Of a stretch of DNA of 64,000 bases, positions 49,579 to 64,000 are shown piece after piece (positions within the stretch are counted from its first letter, which is position 1; the number at the start of each line of letters is the position of its first letter). A program made the position numbers and the translations under genes. The stretch spans positions 62,001 through 126,000 of the forward strand of contig NZ_JAMOIC010000016.1 in assembly GCF_024448895.1 (NCBI RefSeq), written 5' to 3'. The notes beneath the pieces are model-generated. The model had not been told where the DNA came from and searched no databases. It saw only the letters and a program-made list of their open reading frames with translations. Source of the DNA: Stutzerimonas stutzeri. Its GTDB lineage: Bacteria; Pseudomonadota; Gammaproteobacteria; Pseudomonadales; Pseudomonadaceae.

Positions 49579-51774
49579 ATGAAACTGACACGAATACTCA
49601 TCATCCTTGCGTTCGTCGTGGCGGGAGTGTGCTTCTTTTGGTTCGACCTCGGTGAATACCTGACCCTCGAAAACATTCAGTCGAGGAGTGGGGCGCTTCG
49701 AGACCAGGTGCAGGCGCACCCTTGGTGGGCGGGGATCATCTTTTTCACGGCTTATGTCGCGCTGACCGTGCTGTCCTTCCCCGGTACGGTGATTCTCACC
49801 TTGCTGGCCGGCGCGCTGTTCGGTTTGATGGGCGGCACGCTGCTGGTGTCCTTCGCAAGCAATGTCGGCGCGTTGATTGCGATGCTGATCAGCCGATTCC
49901 TGTTGCGCGACTGGGTACAGCGGCGGTTCGCCAAACAGATCGCAAGCATCAACCGCGGCCTGGAGCGCGACGGCTCCTTCTATCTGTTCTCGTTGCGGTT
50001 GATTCCATTAGTGCCGTTCGTGCTACTCAATCCCGCACTGGGCCTCACTCGTGTGAGCGTATGGACGTTCTGGTGGACGACTCAGGCTGGAATGCTCCCG
50101 GGCAACGCGATTTATGTGAACGCCGGACGCCAGCTGGCGAAGTTGCAATCCGTTTCCGACATTCTCTCGCCGAGCATGATCGGCACCCTGATATTGCTGG
50201 CGGTATTCCCACTGGCCGCGACGCGATTACTGACTCACTTCAAGGCGCGTAAGGCGTTTCGCGGGTGGCAGAAGCCCAAGTATTTCGAGCATAACCTCGT
50301 GGTGATCGGGGCCGGGAGCGGGGGGCTTACGGCTGCCCGTATTGCGGCCTCGAAGAAAGCCCGGGTCGCCTTGATCGAGCACGGACGGCTAGGTGGTGCC
50401 GCGCTGCACAGCGGCAGCGTACCGGCCCGAGTTCTGATGAAAGCCGCCAACACCGCCCACTCGCTCCGCCAGAGCGAGGCTTTGGGTGGCGATAATAAGG
50501 AGGTCGATTTCACTCAGGTCATGCAGCAGGTACGCCACACACTTGGCGAAGCACAGGATCGCGTTACGGCGGATGCCTACAGAACCATGGGCGTTGAAGT
50601 AATGGCCGGGGAGGCGCGGCTGACGTCCCCTTGGACTGTGCAGGTCGGTGACCGCGAAATCAGCTCACGCTCGATCATCCTGGCGACGGGCAGCAAACCC
50701 TTCATTCCAGATATTCCGGGCCTTGATCGCGCAGAGCCTCTTACCCCACAAAGCCTCTGGCAGCTCGAAGACCGCCCGGATCGTTTGCTGGTACTGGGTG
50801 GCGACCGCAATGCCTGCGAACTGGCTCAAGCCATGCAGAGACTGGGTTGCCAAGTGACGATACTGAGCAAGGACCAAGACTTGCTCGAAGGGCTGGAGCC
50901 CGAAGCGCGTCAGGCTGTCTGCGACGCGATGCGTGCGGACGGCGTTCAGATATTGTTGGACCACGCCCCACAAAAGGTGGACAGAACGGACGAAGCCTTC
51001 CAATTGGTATGCCAAACGGCTGATCAACAGAATATGTCGATATCCTTCGATCGAGTGTTGGTCGCGATGGGCCGGCAGGTTCAGGCGGATAACCTTGGAC
51101 TGGAAGATTTACAGTTGAAAACCCGCGAAGACGGCAGCGTTGAGGTGGATGAATACCTCGCCACCCGTTACCCGAACATCTTCGCCGTAGGCGCGGTTTC
51201 CGGTCCTGATGCCTCAATCCATGAAGCGGCTCACCATGCCTGGTTTGCCGCGATGAATGCACTGTTCTCCGGTTTGCGCCGCATTGTGGTTAGTGATCGT
51301 GTGGTGCCCGTTGCAGCGTTCACTTCGCCGGAGGTTGCCATGGTCGGGGTAACCGAAGCGCAAGCAAAGGCCGCAAAAACCGAGTACGAAGTCACGCTGC
51401 TCGATCTTGAAGAACTCTCACTGGCTCACCTGAGCGCCGGCAATCGAGGATTCGTCAAAGTGATCACTGAACGTGGCCGCGACCGTATCCTCGGCGTGAC
51501 CTTCGTAGGCGACGGCGCTAGCGAAGCGCTGGGTGTTTTCGTCCTTGCCATGAAGCACAAGCTGGGCTTGAACAAGCTGCATCGCGTTGTGCATTTGAAT
51601 CCAAGCATGGCTGAGGCCAGCATTGCGGTGGCTGATGCATGGCGGCAGGCACACAGCGCGAAACGTCCACTGATCTGGGCCGAACGACTGCAGCGCTGGC
51701 GTCGTGGGCGTGAACCCGAGCAGCCACATGCTGACGATGAGGCTGCAGTGAAGTCAGCAGCGAAGTCCGTCTAG
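49579..51774 (+). CDS. TVP38/TMEM64 membrane domain fused to a pyridine nucleotide-disulfide oxidoreductase-like flavoprotein
   Basis: Encodes 731 residues from ATG 49579, after GGAGGGCAGGG. Residues about 1-230 are a DedA/TVP38 (SNARE-associated) membrane domain: FPGTVILTLLAGALFG, SRFLLRDWVQRRFAKQI, LRLIPLVPFVLLNPALG. From about 240 a mercuric reductase/lipoamide dehydrogenase-like flavoprotein follows (VVIGAGSGGLTAARIA, ILATGSKPFIPDIP, NIFAVGAVSGPDASIHEA) with the dimerisation domain and an HLNPSMAEA block. The usual redox-active CxxxxC is replaced: GGAALHSGSVPAR has Ala275 and Ser280 where the cysteines should be. The enzyme therefore cannot use a standard dithiol mechanism. TVP38-Mer fusions are known in bacteria; the missing cysteines are notable. 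Confidence 0.9.
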   Translation: MKLTRILIILAFVVAGVCFFWFDLGEYLTLENIQSRSGALRDQVQAHPWWAGIIFFTAYVALTVLSFPGTVILTLLAGALFGLMGGTLLVSFASNVGALIAMLISRFLLRDWVQRRFAKQIASINRGLERDGSFYLFSLRLIPLVPFVLLNPALGLTRVSVWTFWWTTQAGMLPGNAIYVNAGRQLAKLQSVSDILSPSMIGTLILLAVFPLAATRLLTHFKARKAFRGWQKPKYFEHNLVVIGAGSGGLTAARIAASKKARVALIEHGRLGGAALHSGSVPARVLMKAANTAHSLRQSEALGGDNKEVDFTQVMQQVRHTLGEAQDRVTADAYRTMGVEVMAGEARLTSPWTVQVGDREISSRSIILATGSKPFIPDIPGLDRAEPLTPQSLWQLEDRPDRLLVLGGDRNACELAQAMQRLGCQVTILSKDQDLLEGLEPEARQAVCDAMRADGVQILLDHAPQKVDRTDEAFQLVCQTADQQNMSISFDRVLVAMGRQVQADNLGLEDLQLKTREDGSVEVDEYLATRYPNIFAVGAVSGPDASIHEAAHHAWFAAMNALFSGLRRIVVSDRVVPVAAFTSPEVAMVGVTEAQAKAAKTEYEVTLLDLEELSLAHLSAGNRGFVKVITERGRDRILGVTFVGDGASEALGVFVLAMKHKLGLNKLHRVVHLNPSMAEASIAVADAWRQAHSAKRPLIWAERLQRWRRGREPEQPHADDEAAVKSAAKSV

Positions 51775-52074
51775 GCGGAGCGTTCGTCTGGAGTAATACG
51801 CACCGAAGAGCACAAGATGCTCAGAGACTCACGATGTCGGCGCACGTTGCGCTGACACGGCTGCTGAGTGAGCCGTGGTGTCGCTGTCCTGCGAGTTCTC
51901 GCAACTCTGTGGTGAGTCACGAAATTAGCCACGCCGATAAGTAATTGATTTTCCGATATATCTTATAAAAAACTCACTGAATGCTGGAAAATCAGCTCCG
52001 ATTACAGCTTTTCTAGCGCATTCTATGACTTCTGCCGAAAGCGTATTCGGTTCGTTGATAGCACGGGAGAAGGT
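51775..52074. other. 300-bp intergenic region at the start of the accessory DNA
   Basis: Base composition falls here from GC-rich to AT-rich. A dyad TGTCGGCGCA-CGT-TGCGCTGACA (51835-51857, one mismatch) and a palindrome TGCGAG-TT-CTCGCA (51890-51903) are visible; either could belong to the left end of the tni element, which often begins TGT, but no matching right end was found. The tniA ribosome site (GGGAGAAGG) lies at the right. Confidence 0.4.
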
Positions 52075-53868
52075 ATGGAAATCACCTTGGCCGAGGGAAT
52101 GCCTGTAATCGCGTTGGGAGCGCTGGCTTTCGTCAATAAGCTTATGCCTAACGGAAAGGTTGAAATTCAGCTAAAAAAGGATAGATCCCGCCATGTTCTT
52201 ACGATTGATGAAATAGAACTCATTAATTTGTCCGAGAAAGATTCAGTTCCGAAGCCGCGACTTTCGGAAGCAATGTACAGATTTCACGATACCTCTATCG
52301 AAAGTGCAGAGATCGCTCAAAAGAGGTATGTGGTACTAAACAAGTGTGTCAATAATGAAATAACCGTATCTCAAGCAGCCGAAGAACTCGATCTATCAGT
52401 ATCCACAATTTACAAACTTCGCCGTAGCTTCGCAAAGGAGGACGGCGTCATGGCTTTACTGGCGAATAAAAAAGGGAGAAAGTTGGGTCTTAGCGCATTA
52501 CAGGCGCCGGTTGAGGCAGTTATGGATGCCGCAATTTCAAAAAATTATAGAGGGAAAGGCGCTACAGTAAAAAAAATTCACCTCAGTATAATTGAAGAGT
52601 GCAGGCGATTAGAATTATCCCCGCCCAGCCTGAGCACCGTGCAGCGTAGGGTTAGAAAGCTCAGTCCGCTCGAGAAAATGACCGCGATCCACGGCGCTGA
52701 TTATGCCAAGGAAAAGTTAGGGCTCAAAACCGGTAAGTTAGTATTATCTCGCCCGCTGGAACAAGTGCAGATTGATCACACGGAAGTCGATATATTATTG
52801 GCAGGTACCGAAGACGGTGAGCGTGCAGTGAGACCTTGGCTCACGGTCGTGATCGACAGCTATACACGAGTAATACTAGGCTTTTATCTTGCTCTACATC
52901 CGCCATCGGCGGTATCAGTTGCAGCAGCGTTATCGATGGCGTGCTTTACAAAAGCTAGCTTTCTAAATGCGATCGGAGCAAGCTCGGCAACTTACCCTTT
53001 CTATGGCAAACCAGAGTTGATATTTGTTGATAATGCTGTTGAATTTCGTAGTTCAAAATTTGTACGAGCCTGCTCCCTAAATAATATTCGGGTAGAATGG
53101 CGACCCATAGGGAAAAAACATTGGGGTGGTATTGTGGAGCGTGTCATTGGGACATTGATGCGAAAAGTACACTCCCTACCTGGGACTACTATGTCGAGTG
53201 TCAGCCAAAGGCCTCAAGGCGAAATAAATGCCACTGTAACTTTCCCTAGGCTATTAGTTTGGCTGACCCTGCAAATCGAGATTTACCACAATACATCCCA
53301 TAGAGGCCTTCAAGGCCGATCTCCCGCTAACGTTTGGTTCGAAGCTTTCCAAACCGATAACGGTAGCCCCATTTACCCACCCCTCATCGCTGACCCGTTT
53401 AAGTTCAAGCTTGATTTTATGCCAGAAGACCGGAGAAGCATCACCTCCAGAGGAATTCAGTTTAAAAGAAATTTTTATTCATCTCAGGCATTGGCGCTTC
53501 ATGTTGGCAGAAAAGATGTAATCATTAAATATGATCCCTTCAAAATGAAAAAAATATGGGCGTATATAGATAACAATTATATAGAAGCTGATTATGGCAT
53601 GACCAGACCGGACATGAGCCTTGCAGAGGTGATGCTGGCGAGCAAGCCTACTAAGCAACCTCCTTGGCTAACCAGTGAGCAAGGTTACGCTGTTAGATTT
53701 GAAGCGGAAAAGCTGATCAGAAAGAGGAATGTCAGCAAAGCAAAAAAAGAGAATTATGAGCTGGCGAATTCTTATATTCCAGGACCGAGCTCCGAGGCGG
53801 AGCTTAGTGATGCGTCTGAGCTAGACGGACGCAAGTTTATTCCAACAATTTATCCGGTTAAGGAATAG
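52075..53868 (+). CDS. tniA: Mu/TnsB-type DDE transposase, TniA-like
   Basis: Encodes 597 residues, with GGGAGAAGG before the ATG. An N-terminal helix-turn-helix region (VSQAAEELDLSVSTIYKLRR, about 98-118) precedes an rve-type catalytic core: Asp234 in VQIDHTEVD, Asp319 in LIFVDNAVEF and Glu355 in HWGGIVERVIGT, a D-35-E spacing. A C-terminal Mu-type beta domain (FKRNFYSSQALALHVG, then VIIKYDPFKMKKIWAYI) follows. Homologues in Tn5053/Tn402 and Tn7 (TniA, TnsB) cut and join transposon ends with an ATPase and a TniQ targeting protein, both encoded next. GC is far lower than in upstream genes, a sign of transfer. No TnsA-like endonuclease is adjacent. Confidence 0.9.
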   Translation: MEITLAEGMPVIALGALAFVNKLMPNGKVEIQLKKDRSRHVLTIDEIELINLSEKDSVPKPRLSEAMYRFHDTSIESAEIAQKRYVVLNKCVNNEITVSQAAEELDLSVSTIYKLRRSFAKEDGVMALLANKKGRKLGLSALQAPVEAVMDAAISKNYRGKGATVKKIHLSIIEECRRLELSPPSLSTVQRRVRKLSPLEKMTAIHGADYAKEKLGLKTGKLVLSRPLEQVQIDHTEVDILLAGTEDGERAVRPWLTVVIDSYTRVILGFYLALHPPSAVSVAAALSMACFTKASFLNAIGASSATYPFYGKPELIFVDNAVEFRSSKFVRACSLNNIRVEWRPIGKKHWGGIVERVIGTLMRKVHSLPGTTMSSVSQRPQGEINATVTFPRLLVWLTLQIEIYHNTSHRGLQGRSPANVWFEAFQTDNGSPIYPPLIADPFKFKLDFMPEDRRSITSRGIQFKRNFYSSQALALHVGRKDVIIKYDPFKMKKIWAYIDNNYIEADYGMTRPDMSLAEVMLASKPTKQPPWLTSEQGYAVRFEAEKLIRKRNVSKAKKENYELANSYIPGPSSEAELSDASELDGRKFIPTIYPVKE

Positions 53869-53871
53869 ACA

Positions 53872-54726
53872 ATGACGGCTGAAGGCTTACGCAAAACCAG
53901 GCGAGAGAAATATTGCGGCGCATCTGATTTGAAACGTATCGAGGTGATTGGGCGCGATATTTGGATTAGTTGCCCCAGACATCAGAGTATAACTAAGACG
54001 GTAGATAATATTCTTAAGCTTAAGGATGTAGAGCCTGCTCCATGTATGCTTGTGTGCGGAGAGGGCGGGTTCGGAAAAACTGCGCTGATTAATGAACTGA
54101 AAATGTCTTCAAAAGACCGAAGTGAGGCAATTAGATTCATGTCTTTGGCAGATAATCCCGGAATGCTCAAATTTAGCGACCTCGTTATGAGCGCGTTAGG
54201 TGTGCCTATCTTACCCGGGCGAGCAACTACGAGAGCACTTTTGCCTCCAGACATCGTCAAATACGTACGTCAAAGTAATATTAGAGCTCTGATTATAGAT
54301 GAAATGCAATCTTCTCTTACAGTCAGTAGAGGCGAGCAAGAGCGGAATCTGCTCTTGATCAAGGCATTGTCAGGAGCTCCTTATCGACTATCAATTATCG
54401 CTTTTGGCACCTCAGCTGCAAAAAATGCTTTGAGTGTCGATGCTCAACTCAGCCGCCGCTACGAAATCTTGGAGCTTCAGCGTTGGACGTTGGACGATGA
54501 GTTTCGAAATTTTCTGGCCTCTTGGGAAAACGAGCTACCGCTCAGAGAAGACTCAAGGCTATACAGAGATGATATAGCGAAGACATTGCTGCTTCACTCT
54601 AACGGCGTGATGGACTTTGTGGTCAAGGGCGTAAAATGGGCAGCTATACAGGCCGTATTGACCGGTGAGGAAAAGATAACCAAAGAACTGATTGAAAAGG
54701 GTTTTGCGACGCGTTGGAGTTACTAA
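53872..54726 (+). CDS. tniB: TniB/TnsC-like AAA+ transposition ATPase
   Basis: Encodes 284 residues, 3 bp after tniA. Walker A is GEGGFGKT (63-70), followed by Walker B in IRALIIDEMQ and a sensor region (IIAFGTSAAKNAL). N-terminal ISCPRHQSI resembles TniB, where an R/H-rich segment precedes the nucleotide fold. TniB binds ATP and DNA, forms filaments, and links TniQ-selected target to TniA. The gene is AT-rich like its neighbours. Confidence 0.9.
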   Translation: MTAEGLRKTRREKYCGASDLKRIEVIGRDIWISCPRHQSITKTVDNILKLKDVEPAPCMLVCGEGGFGKTALINELKMSSKDRSEAIRFMSLADNPGMLKFSDLVMSALGVPILPGRATTRALLPPDIVKYVRQSNIRALIIDEMQSSLTVSRGEQERNLLLIKALSGAPYRLSIIAFGTSAAKNALSVDAQLSRRYEILELQRWTLDDEFRNFLASWENELPLREDSRLYRDDIAKTLLLHSNGVMDFVVKGVKWAAIQAVLTGEEKITKELIEKGFATRWSY

Positions 54727-54728
54727 CT

Positions 54729-55832
54729 GTGCAACGATATTGGAAAGGTCCTCGTATTGTGCACGATGAAACAATCGCGTCCTGGACCTATCGCTGCGCT
54801 TATGATCCATCATGCGAGGTGATCACTACTCTTGATTTGGACGGATTAGTGTTCATACCCAAAGCACTGGACCTGAACTCAGGAAGTGATCTTTCGAACC
54901 CGTCGTTTGATTTTGACATATCAAATGAGCTATTTAAGAAAATTGTCAAACATTACAAGTTATCAGCCCAAGCTGTCGATAAGCTTTTCGGTTACGAACA
55001 AAAAAATCTCCTCGACCCAATGTTTCGCTCAGCCTACTGTGCAGAGTGTTTAAAGGATGATATTACTCATTTTGGCCTACCTGCGTGGCGTCGAAGTTGG
55101 TGCTACGTCCATGCTCCGTTTTGCCTCATACATAAACGTCTGCTCTCGGTGTCTGCAGATGTTAGTCCGGCTAAAGCATGCGCCGCTTTTGTTAGTCTGG
55201 ATGAAAATCTTGGTGATTTTGGGAGTCGAAAGTTTCAAAGCGAAACGACACTCGTCTTAATCCGTAACTTTCTGGCTATTCGAGTTCAGCTCTGGATAAA
55301 TCGTCTCTATGTTTTATCCAGAAATAACCTTACTCACCCGCACGCTAGGGAAATGTTACAGTGTGTCGATCTCTTACTTAAACGGCTGCTTCGAGTTCCG
55401 TCACGCAAATATAAACGGGGCTTGGCTAGATACTTGTTTGGTTATCGTCGGGATTCGTGGTATCCCGATTACGTCCCTGTTGATAAATTGGAAGATATAG
55501 GATGGTTGACAGGGCTTCCGGCTCAGAGAATGTGTGCATTGCTTCTGCTTGGCAATCTTGTCGGTTTGTATAGTGATGATGAAATTGCTTGGCTAGACAA
55601 GCTGTCGCGCCAGAGAGGATTTCTGTGGCCGCGTTCGTTAGCAGATTTGGTCGATTCCGTACTTCATGTGGAAAACAACAGGCAAGTCTGTAATGTACTA
55701 TCGCCCTTTTTAAAGGCGGCCAAAACAAAAACCACGATAGATTGGGCTTCACGCTTCCTTAATCACGTAATTACGAACAATAAAACAGGCTTTAACTCAC
55801 CTAGTCAGTGGCATCAGATAAGATGCTCGTAA
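54729..55832 (+). CDS. tniQ: TniQ-family targeting protein
   Basis: Encodes about 367 residues from GTG 54729, 8 nt after a GGAG in the end of tniB; TTG 54714 would overlap tniB by 13 nt. The N terminus (GPRIVHDETIASWTYRCAY) matches the TniQ opening, and a zinc ribbon follows: YCAECLKDD, then RRSWCYVHAPFCLIHKRLL with Cys/His ligands. TniQ proteins choose the insertion target and recruit TniB. The protein is shorter than Tn5053 TniQ. No cas, tnsA or resolvase (tniR) gene follows, so this is a minimal A-B-Q set. Confidence 0.85.
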   Translation: MQRYWKGPRIVHDETIASWTYRCAYDPSCEVITTLDLDGLVFIPKALDLNSGSDLSNPSFDFDISNELFKKIVKHYKLSAQAVDKLFGYEQKNLLDPMFRSAYCAECLKDDITHFGLPAWRRSWCYVHAPFCLIHKRLLSVSADVSPAKACAAFVSLDENLGDFGSRKFQSETTLVLIRNFLAIRVQLWINRLYVLSRNNLTHPHAREMLQCVDLLLKRLLRVPSRKYKRGLARYLFGYRRDSWYPDYVPVDKLEDIGWLTGLPAQRMCALLLLGNLVGLYSDDEIAWLDKLSRQRGFLWPRSLADLVDSVLHVENNRQVCNVLSPFLKAAKTKTTIDWASRFLNHVITNNKTGFNSPSQWHQIRCS

Positions 55833-57577: not shown

Positions 57578-58381
57578 CTACTCGAACACTTTTCCCCAGT
57601 CGCGAAGAATCAGCTTTCGGCACGCGGATGGGGCGCCACCAAAGCAACGCTGTGCAACTTCGGTGAGATTTGCTTTCGTTTGATAGCCGACCGTTTTGCC
57701 CTCCTGATTGAGCAATACACCGCCAGCTCCCTTTAGCAGTGCGTGACCTGCGACAACATCGTGTGCGGACACTGTTACAAGCGAAACGGCCGCTATTCCA
57801 TCCCCGGCCGCTACTCGCGCTAAGCGATAAGCGATGCTCGGCATGGCGACAAAGTCGGCCGGTGCACACAGCTCAGCATTTACACTTGGCTTCGCAGCCG
57901 CAGCCATGCTCACCATTACCTTGCTTTGTTTATCTAGGTCCCGATCATTTAGTCTCCATGAAACTTCTAGGTCGTTGCGGAGGACGGTATTCAAGCCTTC
58001 TGCCCATGCGATGCAGTCGGCTCCGCGGTCCTCAGTGACAGGGGCACAAACCACGCCCAGTACAGGTACCGCGTTCCGCAGGAGACCGACCGAAACAGCC
58101 GAACCCTTATGCCCCTTCAGAAAATCACTCGTGCCGTCGTTAGGGTCGACGACCCAGCAGTATTCCGCACCAGTCAAGGAGTTGCCGGTCTCTTCTCCCC
58201 AAAAGTCGCAGTCGAGCAGAGCGAGTAAATCGCGGCGCAGAAAGCACTCAATTTCCAAGTCCACCTCGGCCTTGTCACCACTCCCGCGGGGTCCGTTTGG
58301 AAGAAGCCACTCTGCTGCCAACAACGCAGATGCCGCTACGACCCTATCGATGACCTGATTGAGCAAGACCACATAGTCCAT
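57578..58381 (-). CDS. inositol monophosphatase/CysQ-family phosphatase
   Basis: Encodes 267 residues. Metal sites of the family are visible: GDKAEVDLEIE, WGEETG (61-66), DPNDGTSDFLKG (79-90) and AHDVVAGHALLKGAGG with Asp208. In most members the last motif is WDxAAG; here His replaces Trp, and the other ligands are intact. Such Mg-dependent, Li-sensitive enzymes hydrolyse inositol phosphates, 3',5'-bisphosphate nucleotides (CysQ) or related sugar phosphates; the substrate is unclear. On the same strand as the unknown gene at 58610, 228 bp downstream of it. Confidence 0.85.
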   Translation of the reverse strand: MDYVVLLNQVIDRVVAASALLAAEWLLPNGPRGSGDKAEVDLEIECFLRRDLLALLDCDFWGEETGNSLTGAEYCWVVDPNDGTSDFLKGHKGSAVSVGLLRNAVPVLGVVCAPVTEDRGADCIAWAEGLNTVLRNDLEVSWRLNDRDLDKQSKVMVSMAAAAKPSVNAELCAPADFVAMPSIAYRLARVAAGDGIAAVSLVTVSAHDVVAGHALLKGAGGVLLNQEGKTVGYQTKANLTEVAQRCFGGAPSACRKLILRDWGKVFE

Positions 58382-59440: not shown

Positions 59441-59501
59441 CTGCTATCTGCTGATAGCAGCTACATGGGCGATCGAACGCGGTGAAGTTAGTATCACCGC
59501 G
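59441..59501 (+). terminator. hairpins downstream of the XRE gene
   Basis: CTGCTATC-TGCT-GATAGCAG (59441-59460) is a perfect 8-bp stem with a 4-nt loop, 36 bp after the stop. A second inverted repeat, CGCGGTGA...TCACCGCG, lies at 59478-59501. Neither has a long U-tract; the pair may end the convergent XRE and tnpT transcripts or be part of an element end. Confidence 0.45.
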
Positions 59502-59581
59502 GGTAATCCTTACCGGACGCAGATCAGCTCGCATGAGACCGTTGTTATGCTATTTACGCCCTGTCCGGGTAGGGTGCTGAC

Positions 59582-60568
59582 CTAGTCGCTTGGACCCTTT
59601 CTTCTTTTCGCTGGCAGAGATGGTTTCTCTGCGCCGCCAATTACACGCTCATCTCGGCGAGACTTTTGGCGGCTGCTTTGCCTGATTTTCGTCTTGCTCA
59701 AGCTGTCCAGTTTAGTTTGTAGCTCTTCATTTCGTTGCTCACAAGCCAGCTTGACAGCTTCTGCGACATTCAGCTGACTCTGTAGGGCTTCCCGGGCTTG
59801 AATGTTCTGATCGAGCAGGCGCTTCTGGGCCTGTTGATCCCTCTGCGATAGTCTTGCCTCGGTGAGAAGACGTTCGTTGTCACGATTCAGCTGGGTTAAT
59901 TCGTCCTGCTTGACGATCAGCGTCTGCTGCAATTGACGTACTTCCATCTGAGATTGCTGTAGCTGCGATCCATGTCGGCGCTGTTCTTGTTCGCGCTGTT
60001 CCTTGCTGGCCTGGCGGTAGTGCTCTAGCGCGTCACGCGCATGTTTGTGTTTTTCCTCAAGCGAACCGATCTGTGCGTCGCGATCCTTTACTCGGTCCCT
60101 CATATCTCGATTAGCTTGCTGCAGACGGGAAATTTCAATCTCGGCCTGCTGGAGTTTTTGGCTCGCATGCATTAGCTCTTTATCGGTTTTGAAAAGTCGT
60201 TTGGCGTCCATTGCCGTCTGGTCTTCCAATTGCTGAAGGCGGTTCTCGGTCTGTCTAATTTGATTCCGGTAATCGATCATCTCGCGGCCAAGCTGCTCCC
60301 GCTCTACCGCGACGGCTGCATGCGCTTCTTCCTGCAACCGATCGGCTAGCTGGTTCACAAGGTTGGCCAATTGCTCGCTGAGAGACGGAGCCGTTTGCCG
60401 GCCGCGCTCAGTCTCTTCTATTTCTTTCAGGTAGCGGTGAATAGTGGTCTTTGAGCCGGTATTGCCAAGCTCAATCCGTATCGCATCAATGCTGGGGTGC
60501 TCGCCACGGGCGAGGAGGGCGGTTCGTGCCTTTTGCACCACCGCCTTGTTAATGCCGCCGCGTGCCAT
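59582..60568 (-). CDS. tnpT: TnpT-like cointegrate resolution protein (KfrA N-domain, coiled coil)
   Basis: Encodes 328 residues. The first 60 (MARGGINKAVVQKARTAL, SIDAIRIELGNTGSKTTIH) form the KfrA/plasmid replication-region DNA-binding domain. Residues about 65-300 are a long coiled coil rich in Gln/Glu/Arg, with a basic tail (PAKRRKGPSD). This architecture and the divergent tyrosine recombinase match TnpT/TnpS of Tn4651-type Tn3 transposons, where TnpT binds next to the core site and stimulates TnpS resolution. A KfrA-like plasmid protein is an alternative, but the recombinase neighbour favours TnpT. Confidence 0.82.
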   Translation of the reverse strand: MARGGINKAVVQKARTALLARGEHPSIDAIRIELGNTGSKTTIHRYLKEIEETERGRQTAPSLSEQLANLVNQLADRLQEEAHAAVAVEREQLGREMIDYRNQIRQTENRLQQLEDQTAMDAKRLFKTDKELMHASQKLQQAEIEISRLQQANRDMRDRVKDRDAQIGSLEEKHKHARDALEHYRQASKEQREQEQRRHGSQLQQSQMEVRQLQQTLIVKQDELTQLNRDNERLLTEARLSQRDQQAQKRLLDQNIQAREALQSQLNVAEAVKLACEQRNEELQTKLDSLSKTKIRQSSRQKSRRDERVIGGAEKPSLPAKRRKGPSD

Positions 60569-60588
60569 GTTGATCTCCTACGATTTCG

Positions 60589-60620
60589 TACCATATTACA
60601 TACTATGTAGTTACATGGTA
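60589..60620. other. imperfect dyad upstream of tnpT, candidate accessory site
   Basis: TACCATATTACATA pairs with TGTAGTTACATGGTA across a short centre, next to the tnpT start. It is a good candidate for the TnpT binding site and tnpT operator. Confidence 0.5.
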
Positions 60621-60660
60621 CTGAACGATCGGATTTGTGCTAGGTTAAAGCCCGTCAAAG

Positions 60661-60685
60661 ATTGGATAATCATGAATTATTCAAT
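60661..60685. other. candidate core recombination site (rst-like) between tnpT and tnpS
   Basis: ATTGGATAAT-CATGA-ATTATTCAAT: two 10-bp arms with 9 of 10 inverted matches around a 5-bp spacer, the organisation expected of a tyrosine recombinase core site. As I recall, the Tn4651 rst site has inverted arms around a 5-bp spacer in the tnpS-tnpT interval. The match in position and form is strong; exact identity was not checked. Confidence 0.65.
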
Positions 60686-60747
60686 ATGAATGGCACAAAC
60701 GGTCGTCCAGTGGCCGTTTTGCAGTACATAAAGGGCATCTCAGGGCG

Positions 60748-61719
60748 ATGAAAGACGTCGGGCGCTACCTACAAGCCGGTACGCGGGAAAACACCCGCCG
60801 CAGCTATCAGTCGGCCATCGAGCACTTCGAAGTGTCGTGGGGCGGCTTTCTGCCCGCGACAGGCGATAGCGTGGTGCGCTACTTGGTGGATTATGCGGAT
60901 ACGCTGAGCATGAACACGTTGAAGCAACGCCTGGCTGCTCTCGCTCAATGGCATATTACCCAAGGCTTTCCCGACCCAACGAAGACTCCCACAGTGCGTC
61001 AGGTGCTCAAGGGCATCCGCACCCTGCACCCGGCACAGGTCAAGCAAGCCGCCCCTTTGCAACTGCAGCACTTGGAACAGGCGGTACAGTGGCTGGCACT
61101 TGAGTCAGAGCGAGCTCGGATGCGGGACGATTTAGCGAGTCTGTTGCGCTGCCGGCGCGACATGGCATTGCTGCTGATCGGCTTCTGGCGGGGCTTTCGC
61201 AGTGATGAGCTCTGCCGGTTGCAGGTCGAGCATATTCAGGCCGAAACAGGCGCAGGCATGCGTCTGTTCCTGCCGCAGAGCAAGGGCGACCGAGAAAACC
61301 TCGGTACGACGCACTACACGCCGGCGCTAAAGCGACTATGCCCGGTACAGGCCTATCTCGACTGGATCAATGCTGCAGGTATCGTTCGAGGAGCCGTGTT
61401 CCGCCGCCTGGATCGCTGGGGGCATCTCAGCGAGGATGCTTTACATCCGGGTAGCCTGATCAGCTTGCTGCGCCAGATTCTGCAACGCGCCGGAATTCCC
61501 GCTGAACTGTATACCAGCCACTCCTTGCGCCGCGGCTTTGCTACGTGGGCCTCGGCCAATGGATGGGACCTCAAGGCCTTGATGACCTATGTGGGCTGGA
61601 AAGACATCAAGTCGGCCATGCGGTACATCGATCCCGCTATTTCATTTGGTGGCCTGGCGGTCAGGCCCGCTGTTGAATTCAATGCTGGCACTTTGACTCA
61701 GCTGCCAGCTTCTCACTAA
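60748..61719 (+). CDS. tnpS: tyrosine recombinase, TnpS-like
   Basis: Encodes 323 residues. A SAM-like core-binding domain (GTRENTRRSYQSAIEHF, about 13-100) precedes a catalytic domain with Arg in FWRGFRSDELCRL, HSLRRGFATWA (HxxR) and the nucleophilic Tyr in KSAMRYIDP. Its length and divergent pairing with a KfrA/coiled-coil protein match TnpS of Tn4651-family transposons, which resolves cointegrates at rst. DUF5131 begins 29 bp after its stop and tcmP 21 bp after that, so the recombinase appears to head an operon with these passenger genes. Confidence 0.87.
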   Translation: MKDVGRYLQAGTRENTRRSYQSAIEHFEVSWGGFLPATGDSVVRYLVDYADTLSMNTLKQRLAALAQWHITQGFPDPTKTPTVRQVLKGIRTLHPAQVKQAAPLQLQHLEQAVQWLALESERARMRDDLASLLRCRRDMALLLIGFWRGFRSDELCRLQVEHIQAETGAGMRLFLPQSKGDRENLGTTHYTPALKRLCPVQAYLDWINAAGIVRGAVFRRLDRWGHLSEDALHPGSLISLLRQILQRAGIPAELYTSHSLRRGFATWASANGWDLKALMTYVGWKDIKSAMRYIDPAISFGGLAVRPAVEFNAGTLTQLPASH

Positions 61720-61748
61720 CATCGCTGCACGACAGGAGTGACGGTGAA

Positions 61749-62492
61749 ATGAGTACGCAGACCAGCATCGAATGGACGGAAATGACCTGGAACCCCATCG
61801 TGGGTTGCACCAAGGTGTCGCCCGGATGCAAACACTGCTATGCGGAGAACATGGCCTATCGGCTGCAGGCCATGGGAACGCCGGGTTACGAGAACGGCTT
61901 TCGCCTGAGCCTGCGGCCGGAAAAGTTGCAGGAGCCGCTACAGCGCAAGAAACCGACCATTTACTTCGTCAACTCGATGTCTGACCTGTTCCACGAGCAT
62001 GTACCGGACGAATACATCGACCAGGTATTCGAGGTGATCCAAAAAGCTTCCCAACACACCTTCCAGATCCTGACCAAGCGTGCCGAGCGCCTGGCCGAAT
62101 ATTTCAGTAAACGGACACCTCCAGCGAATGCCTGGCTGGGCGTGTCGGTTGAGGACCGCGAATATGGTGTGCCAAGGATCGACTGTCTACGCCAAGTTGA
62201 TGCCACGATTCGCTTCCTCTCTGCCGAGCCGCTGTTGGAAAATTTGGGTGAGCTGGACCTGACCGATATCCACTGGGTCATTGTCGGCGGCGAGTCGGGG
62301 CCTAAGGCCCGCCCGATGAAACAAGAATGGGTCGACAATATTCATCGCCAGTGCGACGCCTCTGGCTCAGCTTTCTTCTTCAAGCAATGGGGCGGATGGG
62401 GTGCTGATGGGGTGAAACGCTCGAAGAAAGCCAACGGTCGACTGTTGAACGGCCAGACCTGGGATGAAATCCCGCTGCTCAACCTCGCCTGA
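61749..62492 (+). CDS. DUF5131 (phage Gp37/Gp68 family) three-Cys-motif protein
   Basis: Encodes 247 residues, with AGGAG 11 nt before the ATG. The N terminus has IEWTEMTWNPIVGCTKVSPG then CKHCYAE: Cys20, Cys27 and Cys30 in a C-x6-C-x2-C pattern, reminiscent of but different from the radical-SAM CxxxCxxC. Later blocks are NSMSDLFHEHVPDEYI, FQILTKRAERL, WLGVSVED and VIVGGESGPKARPM, followed by FFFKQWGGWG. The family was first noted in phages (Gp37/Gp68) and is typically paired with TcmP, which is the next gene. The function is unknown; a metal-cluster enzyme is suggested by the cysteines. Confidence 0.9.
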   Translation: MSTQTSIEWTEMTWNPIVGCTKVSPGCKHCYAENMAYRLQAMGTPGYENGFRLSLRPEKLQEPLQRKKPTIYFVNSMSDLFHEHVPDEYIDQVFEVIQKASQHTFQILTKRAERLAEYFSKRTPPANAWLGVSVEDREYGVPRIDCLRQVDATIRFLSAEPLLENLGELDLTDIHWVIVGGESGPKARPMKQEWVDNIHRQCDASGSAFFFKQWGGWGADGVKRSKKANGRLLNGQTWDEIPLLNLA

Positions 62493-62513
62493 TACCAGCA
62501 CAAGGAATACGGC

Positions 62514-63827
62514 ATGGCCAAGGATGATGAGAAATACCGTTGGGATTGGGGTACACAAACCTTCCCAACCATCGACCCGCACAGCAAGATCAAACATCAG
62601 ATCATCGATGAGTACATCCAGACTTACATCGACGTGCTGATGCGCAACCAACTGATGCCAGAACTGGGCTTGTCGATCGTCGATGGCTTCAGTGGTGGAG
62701 GTATCTACCACGACGGCTTAGGTCGGAATCACTTCGGCTCTCCCGTGATTGCACTGGAGGCGATTCAGGCTTCGGAGGTCCGCAACAACCTAGAGCGCAT
62801 CAAGCCGCGCCCCATCCGCTCCCAGCACTATTTCGTGGATGTGAAGCCCGAGAACATTGCCTGCTTGCATTCAGTATTGGCCGCGCGTGGTCATGCTCCT
62901 CGGCTTGGCCAGGATGTGCATCTGCATAGCGCTGAATTCACAGAAGCATTGCCGACCATCGCTCAAAAGCTCAAGCATTTCGGCAAGGGTGAGCGTGTGC
63001 TCTTCCTGCTGGATCAGTACGGTTATGGCGATGTGCCGTTCCCTAAGATCAAATGGATTTTCCAGAATCTCAACAAAGCCGAGGTCCTGCTGACCTTCAA
63101 TGTCGATTTTTTGGTTACGTATCTAGCCGACCGCCAAGCGAACCGGAAAGCCATTGCAAATATCGGCTTGGATCAGCATGTGCCATGGGACATGCTTAAA
63201 CAGCTGAAGGCGCATCAGCCACGGAGCTGGCAATACCTGATCCAGCGCTATCTGTCCGAGGGGATCAAGCAGGAAAGCGGTGCCCAGTACATGACCGTCT
63301 TCTTCATTCGTCCGGCCGGCAGCAACCCGATGGCCTATTGGTTTATCCATCTGGCGAACAACTACCGCGCTAACGATGTGATGAAGAAGATCCACTGGAA
63401 ATACGGCAACAACTTTTCCCATATGCTGTCGCCTTCCAGCTTTTTCGGCTACGACGCCAATCGGGATATCGCCGTGACAGGTCAGCACGATTTGCTGTTG
63501 GATGAGCATTATTTCGACGATGCTACCAATGACCGCATCCGAGGAGAACTTTCGGAGCTCTTGCCCAAACAGGTCTACGAGGTAGAACGGCAACCTTTTT
63601 TGGGCCTGATGAGCGGATTGACCAACTACACCATGGCTGACGAGCTTCGCGTAAAGCAGGCACTCGACATTGCTGTCGCGACCGGTGATCTGCTGGCGGT
63701 CGACAAGAACGGCAAAACAAGGCGTCGAAAAGGCACAAGCATCAAGTCGACAGATATCCTGATAGCGCCCCCGCAAAGACCCATCTTCTTCGTGCCACCT
63801 CTGAAGAAATCCAGTTCAGAAAACTGA
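62514..63827 (+). CDS. tcmP: three-Cys-motif partner protein TcmP
   Basis: Encodes 437 residues, AAGGAA before the ATG, 21 bp after DUF5131. It contains SIVDGFSGGGIYHD (57-63 DGFSGGG), a glycine-rich loop like motif I of Rossmann methyltransferases, and VLFLLDQYGYGDVPFP, which sits where a methyltransferase motif IV would. The family name (TIGR04474) reflects its adjacency to three-Cys proteins. The C-terminal part (PMAYWFIHLANNYRANDVMKKIHW, read in two blocks, and FLGLMSGLTNYTMADEL) is family-specific. Activity unproven; a nucleic-acid-modifying methyltransferase-like role is an inference. Confidence 0.88.
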   Translation: MAKDDEKYRWDWGTQTFPTIDPHSKIKHQIIDEYIQTYIDVLMRNQLMPELGLSIVDGFSGGGIYHDGLGRNHFGSPVIALEAIQASEVRNNLERIKPRPIRSQHYFVDVKPENIACLHSVLAARGHAPRLGQDVHLHSAEFTEALPTIAQKLKHFGKGERVLFLLDQYGYGDVPFPKIKWIFQNLNKAEVLLTFNVDFLVTYLADRQANRKAIANIGLDQHVPWDMLKQLKAHQPRSWQYLIQRYLSEGIKQESGAQYMTVFFIRPAGSNPMAYWFIHLANNYRANDVMKKIHWKYGNNFSHMLSPSSFFGYDANRDIAVTGQHDLLLDEHYFDDATNDRIRGELSELLPKQVYEVERQPFLGLMSGLTNYTMADELRVKQALDIAVATGDLLAVDKNGKTRRRKGTSIKSTDILIAPPQRPIFFVPPLKKSSSEN

Positions 63828-63884
63828 GAGGGGCGGCATCGCTCTTCGGGTGGGCGGTTCGCCTCCAACGGTAGAGGTACCGGC

Positions 63885-64000
63885 ATGATACAAGCAGTAG
63901 TTTTCGATGTGTTTGGCACGCTTCTCCAGATAGGTGAGCGCCGCCATCCTTTCCGCCAACTGATGCAGAACCTGCGGCTTCAGGGCAAAACACCAAGGCC
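63885..64000 (+). CDS. HAD-family hydrolase (partial, runs off the right edge)
   Basis: Thirty-eight codons are present from ATG 63885. The start MIQAVVFDVFGTLLQIG has the HAD motif I DxFGT with the nucleophilic Asp8. It lies 57 bp after tcmP in the same direction, so it may belong to the same unit. HAD enzymes are phosphatases or dehalogenases; nothing more can be said from the fragment. Confidence 0.78.
   Translation, partial: MIQAVVFDVFGTLLQIGERRHPFRQLMQNLRLQGKTPR

Follow-up and report, generated by a model that had tools for sequence, protein, structure and literature searches.

The window analysed here is a stretch of 64,000 nucleotides from Stutzerimonas stutzeri (positions 62001-126000 of contig 16 of the draft genome, NZ_JAMOIC010000016.1, 127907 bases). 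At its right end it contains a tyrosine recombinase gene, tnpS, followed by the genes of a DUF5131 protein and of TcmP. With confidence just short of even, the locus is interpreted as an operon of defence-type cargo that forms part of the TnpST resolution module in a Tn3-family transposon of the Tn4651 type. That tnpS-DUF5131-TcmP constitutes mobile cargo of a cointegrate-resolution module is well supported. The following features were assigned (window coordinates).

59582-60568, minus strand: tnpT-like DNA-binding coiled-coil protein, divergent recombinase helper (PF11740 KfrA_N, 3.4e-24)
60569-60747, no strand: tnpT-tnpS intergenic region, rst-like, conserved core at ~60575-60616, palindrome of the TACATAC-ATGTA type
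60748-61719, plus strand: tnpS-like tyrosine recombinase, 323 aa (PF00589, 9.8e-14; HxxR...Y visible in the sequence)
61749-62492, plus strand: DUF5131 protein (phage Gp37/Gp68 family), 247 aa (PF07505, 5.4e-111; C20, C27, C30)
62514-63827, plus strand: TcmP, 437 aa (TIGR04474, 1e-67), with an RlmJ-like S-adenosylmethionine (SAM) methyltransferase domain at ~4-306
63885-64517, plus strand (the window ends at 64000): HAD-IA hydrolase, 210 aa (TIGR01549 above cut-off; end read on L002)

An initial annotation had described four open reading frames on one strand, with gaps of 29, 21 and 57 nt, for a TnpS-like tyrosine recombinase, a DUF5131 protein with a C-x6-C-x2-C motif, a TcmP with the motifs DGFSGGG and DQYGYGD, and a HAD protein. 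The gaps were reproduced from the coordinates, and the identities of recombinase and HAD protein were confirmed by the profile matches given above. The cysteines were located at C20-x6-C27-x2-C30 and the TcmP motifs at residues 57-63 and 167-173; TcmP scored 228.8 bits against TIGR04474 (cut-off 53 bits). The divergent tnpT, absent from that annotation, completes a tnpT-tnpS-DUF5131-TcmP module. A tyrosine recombinase divergent from a KfrA_N-type TnpT, with a conserved site between them, identifies a TnpST resolution module, and 'Tn4652, cointegrate resolution protein T' is annotated under the matching stretch in the relative LT599585. An inverted repeat was detected in the tnpT-tnpS gap, the core of which was common to all 11 aligned sequences with or without DUF5131-TcmP. 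The gap is expected to comprise the recombination site and the tnpS promoter. A scan for internal promoters and terminators between the genes gave no excess over shuffles; one weak promoter-like site was found at 61693-61722.

The linkage recurred in other replicons. Matches were found in 265 plasmid records, 29 of which covered at least 80% of window positions 59500-64000, including pCAR1, P. aeruginosa plasmids, Stutzerimonas S116 and P. luteola. Because the gene order recurs on plasmids, the arrangement is not due to chance. A survey of 398 genomes drawn evenly from the family (E up to 1e-60 for tnpS and 1e-20 for DUF5131) detected tnpS relatives in 183 and DUF5131 in 17. DUF5131 was located directly behind 9 of the 15 tnpS copies of about 85% identity or more, the remaining six being those of G040, G352, G520, G318 and G367 and the second copy of G023; none of the more distant tnpS copies examined in these genomes was followed by DUF5131. 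The tnpS-DUF5131 gap measured 29 nt in all nine copies. These sequences suggest a single acquisition within one lineage of tnpS, with losses afterwards.

On pCAR1 (tnpS 52762-53733, DUF5131 51989-52732, TcmP 50722-51969), co-transcription of the three genes has been reported, with a mapped transcript that begins in the tnpT-tnpS gap; P. putida KT2440(pCAR1) transcribed the operon with either of the two carbon sources used, and Tn4676, which includes pCAR1 1-59548, spans all three genes (PMC2642839). Since this has been published for the relative pCAR1, the window operon is presumably likewise co-transcribed from the tnpT-tnpS gap. The initial proposal of mobile cargo linked to a cointegrate-resolution recombinase was thus borne out by the recurrence on plasmids and in family genomes, the published transcript and the location within Tn4676.

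The divergent tnpT-tnpS genes with a conserved core between them correspond to TnpS/TnpT of Tn4651/Tn4652 and Tn4676, and Tn4676 on pCAR1 has the same three-gene transcript. Unlike in these elements, a close tnpA was present in the window's genome (78 contigs) only as 3' fragments, namely a 92%-identical match restricted to residues 817-995 of 1004 and one of 45 residues; an intact close tnpA was not found, and the sole full-length Tn3-type match in this draft was 24% identical. Compared with elements in which tnpA follows tnpS, as it does as the next gene on five plasmids, the window operon is extended by DUF5131 and TcmP. Among viral contigs, one stretch matched a TnpS pattern and no TnpS relative was found. 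A tnpS relative of 65-71% identity occurred in many family genomes, with flanking genes of like size in L309, L311, L313, L314, L318 and L320, which suggests an old chromosomal TnpST locus.

DUF5131 was located away from tnpS in 8 of its 17 genomes. In one of these loci (L295:6356-13462) TcmP-DUF5131-TcmP immediately adjoins genes of the tnsA-tnsB-tnsC type belonging to a Tn7-like element, and the order of genes in L296 is identical, domains having been checked for L295 alone; the Tn7-like element is a second transposon class carrying the pair. Other settings included an SNF2 helicase neighbour (L297), a WYL regulator (L298) and AbiD (L299). TcmP was next to or near DUF5131 in 16 of the 17 genomes; none was detected near DUF5131 of G376 by BLAST with the long type.

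The HAD protein, proposed initially as a third component, was rejected as such. HAD follows tcmP in 5 of 11 compared copies (the window's genome G000, G023, G013, G371 and plasmid S116) and not in G048, G027, G365, G370/pCAR1, G366/p34Pae36 and P. luteola. In G040, tnpS and HAD are kept without the pair: similarity to the window breaks off at 61733 and resumes at 63823, DUF5131 is gone and only the last few bases of tcmP are left. The two sides of this join overlap by only 2 nt, and an independent mobile cassette for DUF5131-TcmP is therefore not supported. Because the sides differ in likeness to the window (84% left, 99% right), the join may represent a deletion or a recombination between copies. 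Beyond 64000, as the initial annotation had advised reading, HAD ends at 64517 and is followed by a CDF metal transporter on the minus strand and then a CadR/PbrR regulator. Within the genus, 28 of 56 genomes gave a TcmP match, full-length in 6. The 24 truncated copies examined, in which the 5' side of tcmP is missing (two further matches had no locus), exhibited 7 different left flanks with breaks at 63021-63291; 15 have one common junction at 63024, and the two of these fetched at length retain HAD-CDF-CadR. No DUF5131 was found in nine stretches fetched around truncated copies (6 of the 7 left-flank groups). Since HAD is kept in G040, follows tcmP in 5 of 11 copies and stays with CDF-CadR beside truncated tcmP, it is assigned, from sequence comparison, to the adjacent metal-resistance cargo, and the pair has been lost repeatedly. 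Three different left flanks of truncated copies (L017-L040) break within 3 bp (63021, 63023 and 63024, as BLAST ends) at tcmP motif IV; 63021-63024 is perhaps an insertion or recombination hot spot.

A link to defence was provided by the PADLOC candidate systems PDC-M30 and PDC-M41, which include both TcmP and DUF5131 as components and the models of which both proteins match. The M30B (9.9e-114) and M30A (3.5e-26) matches are adjacent and 21 nt apart, as obtained without the PADLOC system rules; the TcmP match to M30A is moderate and comprises residues 19-296 only. The window differs from the catalogued systems in its one long TcmP and in its location directly behind tnpS in a Tn3-family resolution module. 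A study of 100 P. aeruginosa strains reported PDC-M30 in 32, of which 68.8% were resistant, and calls the PDC systems not experimentally validated (PMC10855318). In a table of PMC12445080, the locus tags of a TcmP gene (SMa2243) and of the Hna defence gene (SMa2245) differ by two.

The same slot behind tnpS was occupied by recognised defence genes in two relatives. In G050 (L062:9602-13767) a complete Gabija system, GajA (PADLOC, 1122 bits) and GajB (900 bits), lies 271 nt behind a 70%-identical tnpS with divergent tnpT. In G367 (L289:7704-8639) an Mrr_cat nuclease (PF04471, 2.4e-5; PDC-M58A, 4e-7; LmuA, 2e-4) lies 57 nt behind an 85%-identical tnpS in place of DUF5131-TcmP. For TnHdN1, a toxin-antitoxin (TA) pair has been described in this position (PMC7157771). 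Owing to the PDC-M30/M41 match and the Gabija or Mrr-like nuclease in the slot, a nucleic-acid modification or defence role of the pair is plausible on sequence grounds. Overall, modification of nucleic acid by the pair is judged probable and an anti-phage role likely. Large same-strand genes behind further tnpS relatives (L303:7216-10439, L316:7175-9325, L319:7343-8485 and L065:10008-16430) gave no match to Pfam (0.001; second L319 gene not tried) or PADLOC (1e-6), L065 being partly scanned; they are candidates for new cargo functions.

Radical-SAM enzymes were the best fold matches of DUF5131, spore photoproduct lyase (SPL) being clearly the nearest. All three cluster cysteines were present in 55 of 55 aligned DUF5131 proteins and, together with the barrel fold, place the protein in the radical-SAM superfamily. 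A radical-SAM barrel is supported by the predicted structure, as the motif-based reading in the initial annotation had suggested. According to PMC3742179, SPL depends on a fourth Cys as well as on a Tyr located behind the cluster, and its hydrogen-donor Cys is C141 in Bs. Tyr31, directly behind the third cluster Cys of DUF5131, was found in 55/55, and the motif order cluster, SxSD, TK (109-110) and [ST]V (133-134) resembles cluster, C-x-T-D, T-K and S-V of SPL, in a register based on motif order and spacing, not on coordinate superposition. DUF5131 differs from SPL in having Cx6CxxC instead of CxxxCxxC and in lacking the fourth Cys (C140 in Gt, C141 in Bs) at its S-M-S-D motif. S76 and M77 occupy this place in 55/55, followed by S78 (50/55) and D79 (55/55), where three SPL relatives read C-Y-[T/A]-D; the only other near-invariant Cys-rich column, C202 (48/55), is far away. 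Further differences are the methyltransferase partner and the lack of sequence-level similarity, the SPL family profile PF20903 not being among the DUF5131 hits at 0.1. By profile, DUF5131 is related to the NCBIfam radical SAM mobile pair protein A (TIGR04471, 95 bits), but far below its 355-bit cut-off. When PDB chains were searched by sequence, neither of the two alignments found a match, and the single proteins gave only weak ones (E 0.43 and above).

The nearest solved fold of TcmP was RlmJ, the 23S rRNA A2030 N6-methyltransferase. A SAM-methyltransferase fold is supported by this model comparison, which strengthens the earlier methyltransferase-like reading. According to PMC3814359, Y4, H6, K18 and D164 are required in RlmJ, the active site of which is closer to DNA m6A enzymes. 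TcmP has Y-x-[H/W], K, D-x-x-x-G-x-G-x-Y and the catalytic Asp in the same order: Y8 occurs in 21 and W10 in 22 of 25 long members, and the equivalents of K18 and D164 are K27 (43 of 44, one gap) and D167 (44 of 44). In contrast to RlmJ, it has D-Q-Y for D-P-P-Y and an extra C-terminal region, for which weak winged helix-turn-helix similarity below Pfam's cut-off was obtained, and the RlmJ profile PF04378 was not among its hits at 0.1.

The two proteins appear to differ in their rates of change. Across 25 loci chosen for both genes, DUF5131 showed the higher identity in all 300 pairs (median 0.68, versus 0.34 for TcmP), a result favoured by the sampling, since the loci were mostly found by DUF5131 likeness; in the less biased sample of tnpS-linked relatives, dN of TcmP exceeded that of DUF5131 in 9 of 9. 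The C-terminal stretch of TcmP was the most variable of three compared (0.22). Identities of the two proteins track weakly (Spearman 0.17): in DUF5131 the window is nearer L294/L295 (0.92) than L297/L298 (0.68-0.70), and in TcmP nearer L297/L298 (0.62-0.63) than L294/L295 (0.53-0.54). These sequence patterns fit a constant catalyst, DUF5131, with an exchanged, fast-changing partner, TcmP. Values of dN/dS (Nei-Gojobori; dS above 1 in several pairs) were 0.020-0.038 for DUF5131, 0.031-0.085 for TcmP and 0.051-0.141 for tnpS, without internal stops, which indicates purifying selection on both enzymes.

The most specific hypothesis that fits the predicted folds is a two-step chemistry. Going by fold and motifs, TcmP would methylate an exocyclic base nitrogen, most likely adenine N6, as an RlmJ-like enzyme, guided by its fast-evolving C-terminal part. 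DUF5131, as an SPL-like radical-SAM enzyme, would make a 5'-deoxyadenosyl radical and take a hydrogen from the base or the new methyl, yielding a hypermodified base. The neighbourhood suggests protection against phages or rival mobile DNA as the outcome, either by damage or block of invader nucleic acid or by self-marking, so that a host nuclease spares it; the target may be DNA or RNA. The complete proposal, in which an exchangeable RlmJ-like methyltransferase adds a methyl group (at N6 or elsewhere), the SPL-like enzyme functionalises this methyl for immunity, and the post-resolvase position of a Tn3-family operon provides a slot in which defence cargo (DUF5131-TcmP, Gabija, Mrr-type nuclease, TA) can dock, is possible but rather doubtful.

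Several observations weigh against a defence operon of this kind. Alignment with hhalign gave no sequence-level support for the fold assignments (Prob 2.6 and 0.9 for TcmP versus RlmJ, 2.1 for DUF5131 versus SPL), and motif IV reads D-Q in 22 of 25 long TcmP members and D-P in 19 of 19 short ones. The correlation of PDC-M30 with resistance is not causal. Among 116 neighbour proteins scanned, 5 N6/N4 methylases, 4 ResIII proteins, 3 S24 peptidases and 2 HipA were found, without a control set. Recognised defence genes filled the slot at only 2 of 31 tnpS loci without DUF5131 (29 plus L054 and L289; downstream proteins partly scanned). PADLOC models matched none of eight further proteins encoded downstream of tnpS at 1e-6, and a Pfam search of ten gave matches for four (metal ATPase, peroxiredoxin, NADAR, chromate transporter) and none for the other six. 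Decayed copies of the module are frequent in the genus, and TcmP of pCAR1, shortened to 415 aa with IS1162 behind it, resembles the intact one of the window up to residue 409. No measured activity of the pair was seen in the papers found in the open-access literature, where absence is weak evidence; the same holds for the DUF5131 name and for Tn3 family transposon passenger and tnpA joined with anti-phage defense, under which nothing was found.

Viral contigs bear on this question as well as on the alternative of anti-restriction. Among the best 80 of 573 confirmed viral DUF5131 hits, 29 loci had TcmP and 19 carried a different DNA methyltransferase cluster in their flanks, with 12 of these genes inside 600 nt and 12 beyond. 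A point against the defence reading is that 32 had neither TcmP nor the three other methyltransferase clusters, although one of these (L210) has a helicase-methylase fusion; as phage methyltransferases are common, the association is also without a control. Viral DUF5131 proteins (L184-L226) were mostly longer than that of the window and mostly without detected TcmP, several being near N6/N4, C5 or D12 DNA methyltransferases. The initial statement that the pair was first seen in phages applies to the DUF5131 name and viral matches but not to this TcmP type, which matched 1 of 50,697 phage records.

The strongest rival, anti-restriction, in which the pair hypermodifies the mobile element's own (or phage) DNA against host nucleases, is considered unlikely. 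The occurrence of the pair, or of its parts, on plasmids, transposons and viral contigs, the presence of TcmPs on an ICE-like plasmid, the viral DUF5131 genes beside other DNA methyltransferases and the suitability of methyltransferase plus radical chemistry for hypermodification all agree with it, but the pair is also found near chromosomal restriction-modification and defence genes, the slot elsewhere holds Gabija, and this TcmP type is nearly missing from phage records. Somewhat less probable is RNA modification, in which TcmP would methylate rRNA or tRNA like RlmJ and DUF5131 finish the nucleoside, altering translation, for example to withstand phage takeover. As the RlmJ active site is described as nearer to DNA m6A enzymes (PMC3814359), the fold does not decide the substrate, and restriction-modification and DNA methyltransferase neighbours point to DNA. 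DNA repair by DUF5131 as a base-lesion lyase with TcmP as DNA-binding helper is improbable: SPL is the clear nearest fold, with the Tyr behind the third Cys in 55/55, one copy has ImuA, DNA polymerase Y and error-prone polymerase genes nearby and S24 peptidases make up 3 of the 116 neighbour proteins, but the hydrogen-donor Cys of SPL seems replaced by S-M in 55/55 and a conserved methyltransferase active site would be unneeded. An addiction (TA-like) module stabilising the element, considered because of the TA pair in the same slot of TnHdN1 (PMC7157771) and consistent with the transcript shared with the recombinase in pCAR1 (PMC2642839), is very improbable given the G040 locus, where both genes have naturally been lost from between tnpS and HAD, the 24 truncated tcmP copies with 7 left flanks and no DUF5131 in the nine stretches fetched (6 of 7 groups), and the lack of any toxin or antitoxin family match for either protein (Pfam, NCBIfam and PADLOC at 0.1).

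Upstream of the module, 52075-55832 holds a transposase-like gene (IS481-type match) together with genes for TniB and TniQ; Tn5053-type elements have been termed res-site hunters (PMC7765201). A CysQ-like/inositol-phosphatase-family gene at 57578-58381 (minus strand) adjoins the element.

As the pair itself is already catalogued, the novelty of the defence-type cargo interpretation lies in the structural assignment and the resolvase-operon setting. A widespread gene pair of undescribed function gains a concrete predicted chemistry, a base methyltransferase with an SPL-like radical enzyme. If this is true, radical chemistry on nucleobases would join the known routes of phage resistance, and a transposon resolution module would carry immunity in its resolvase transcript.

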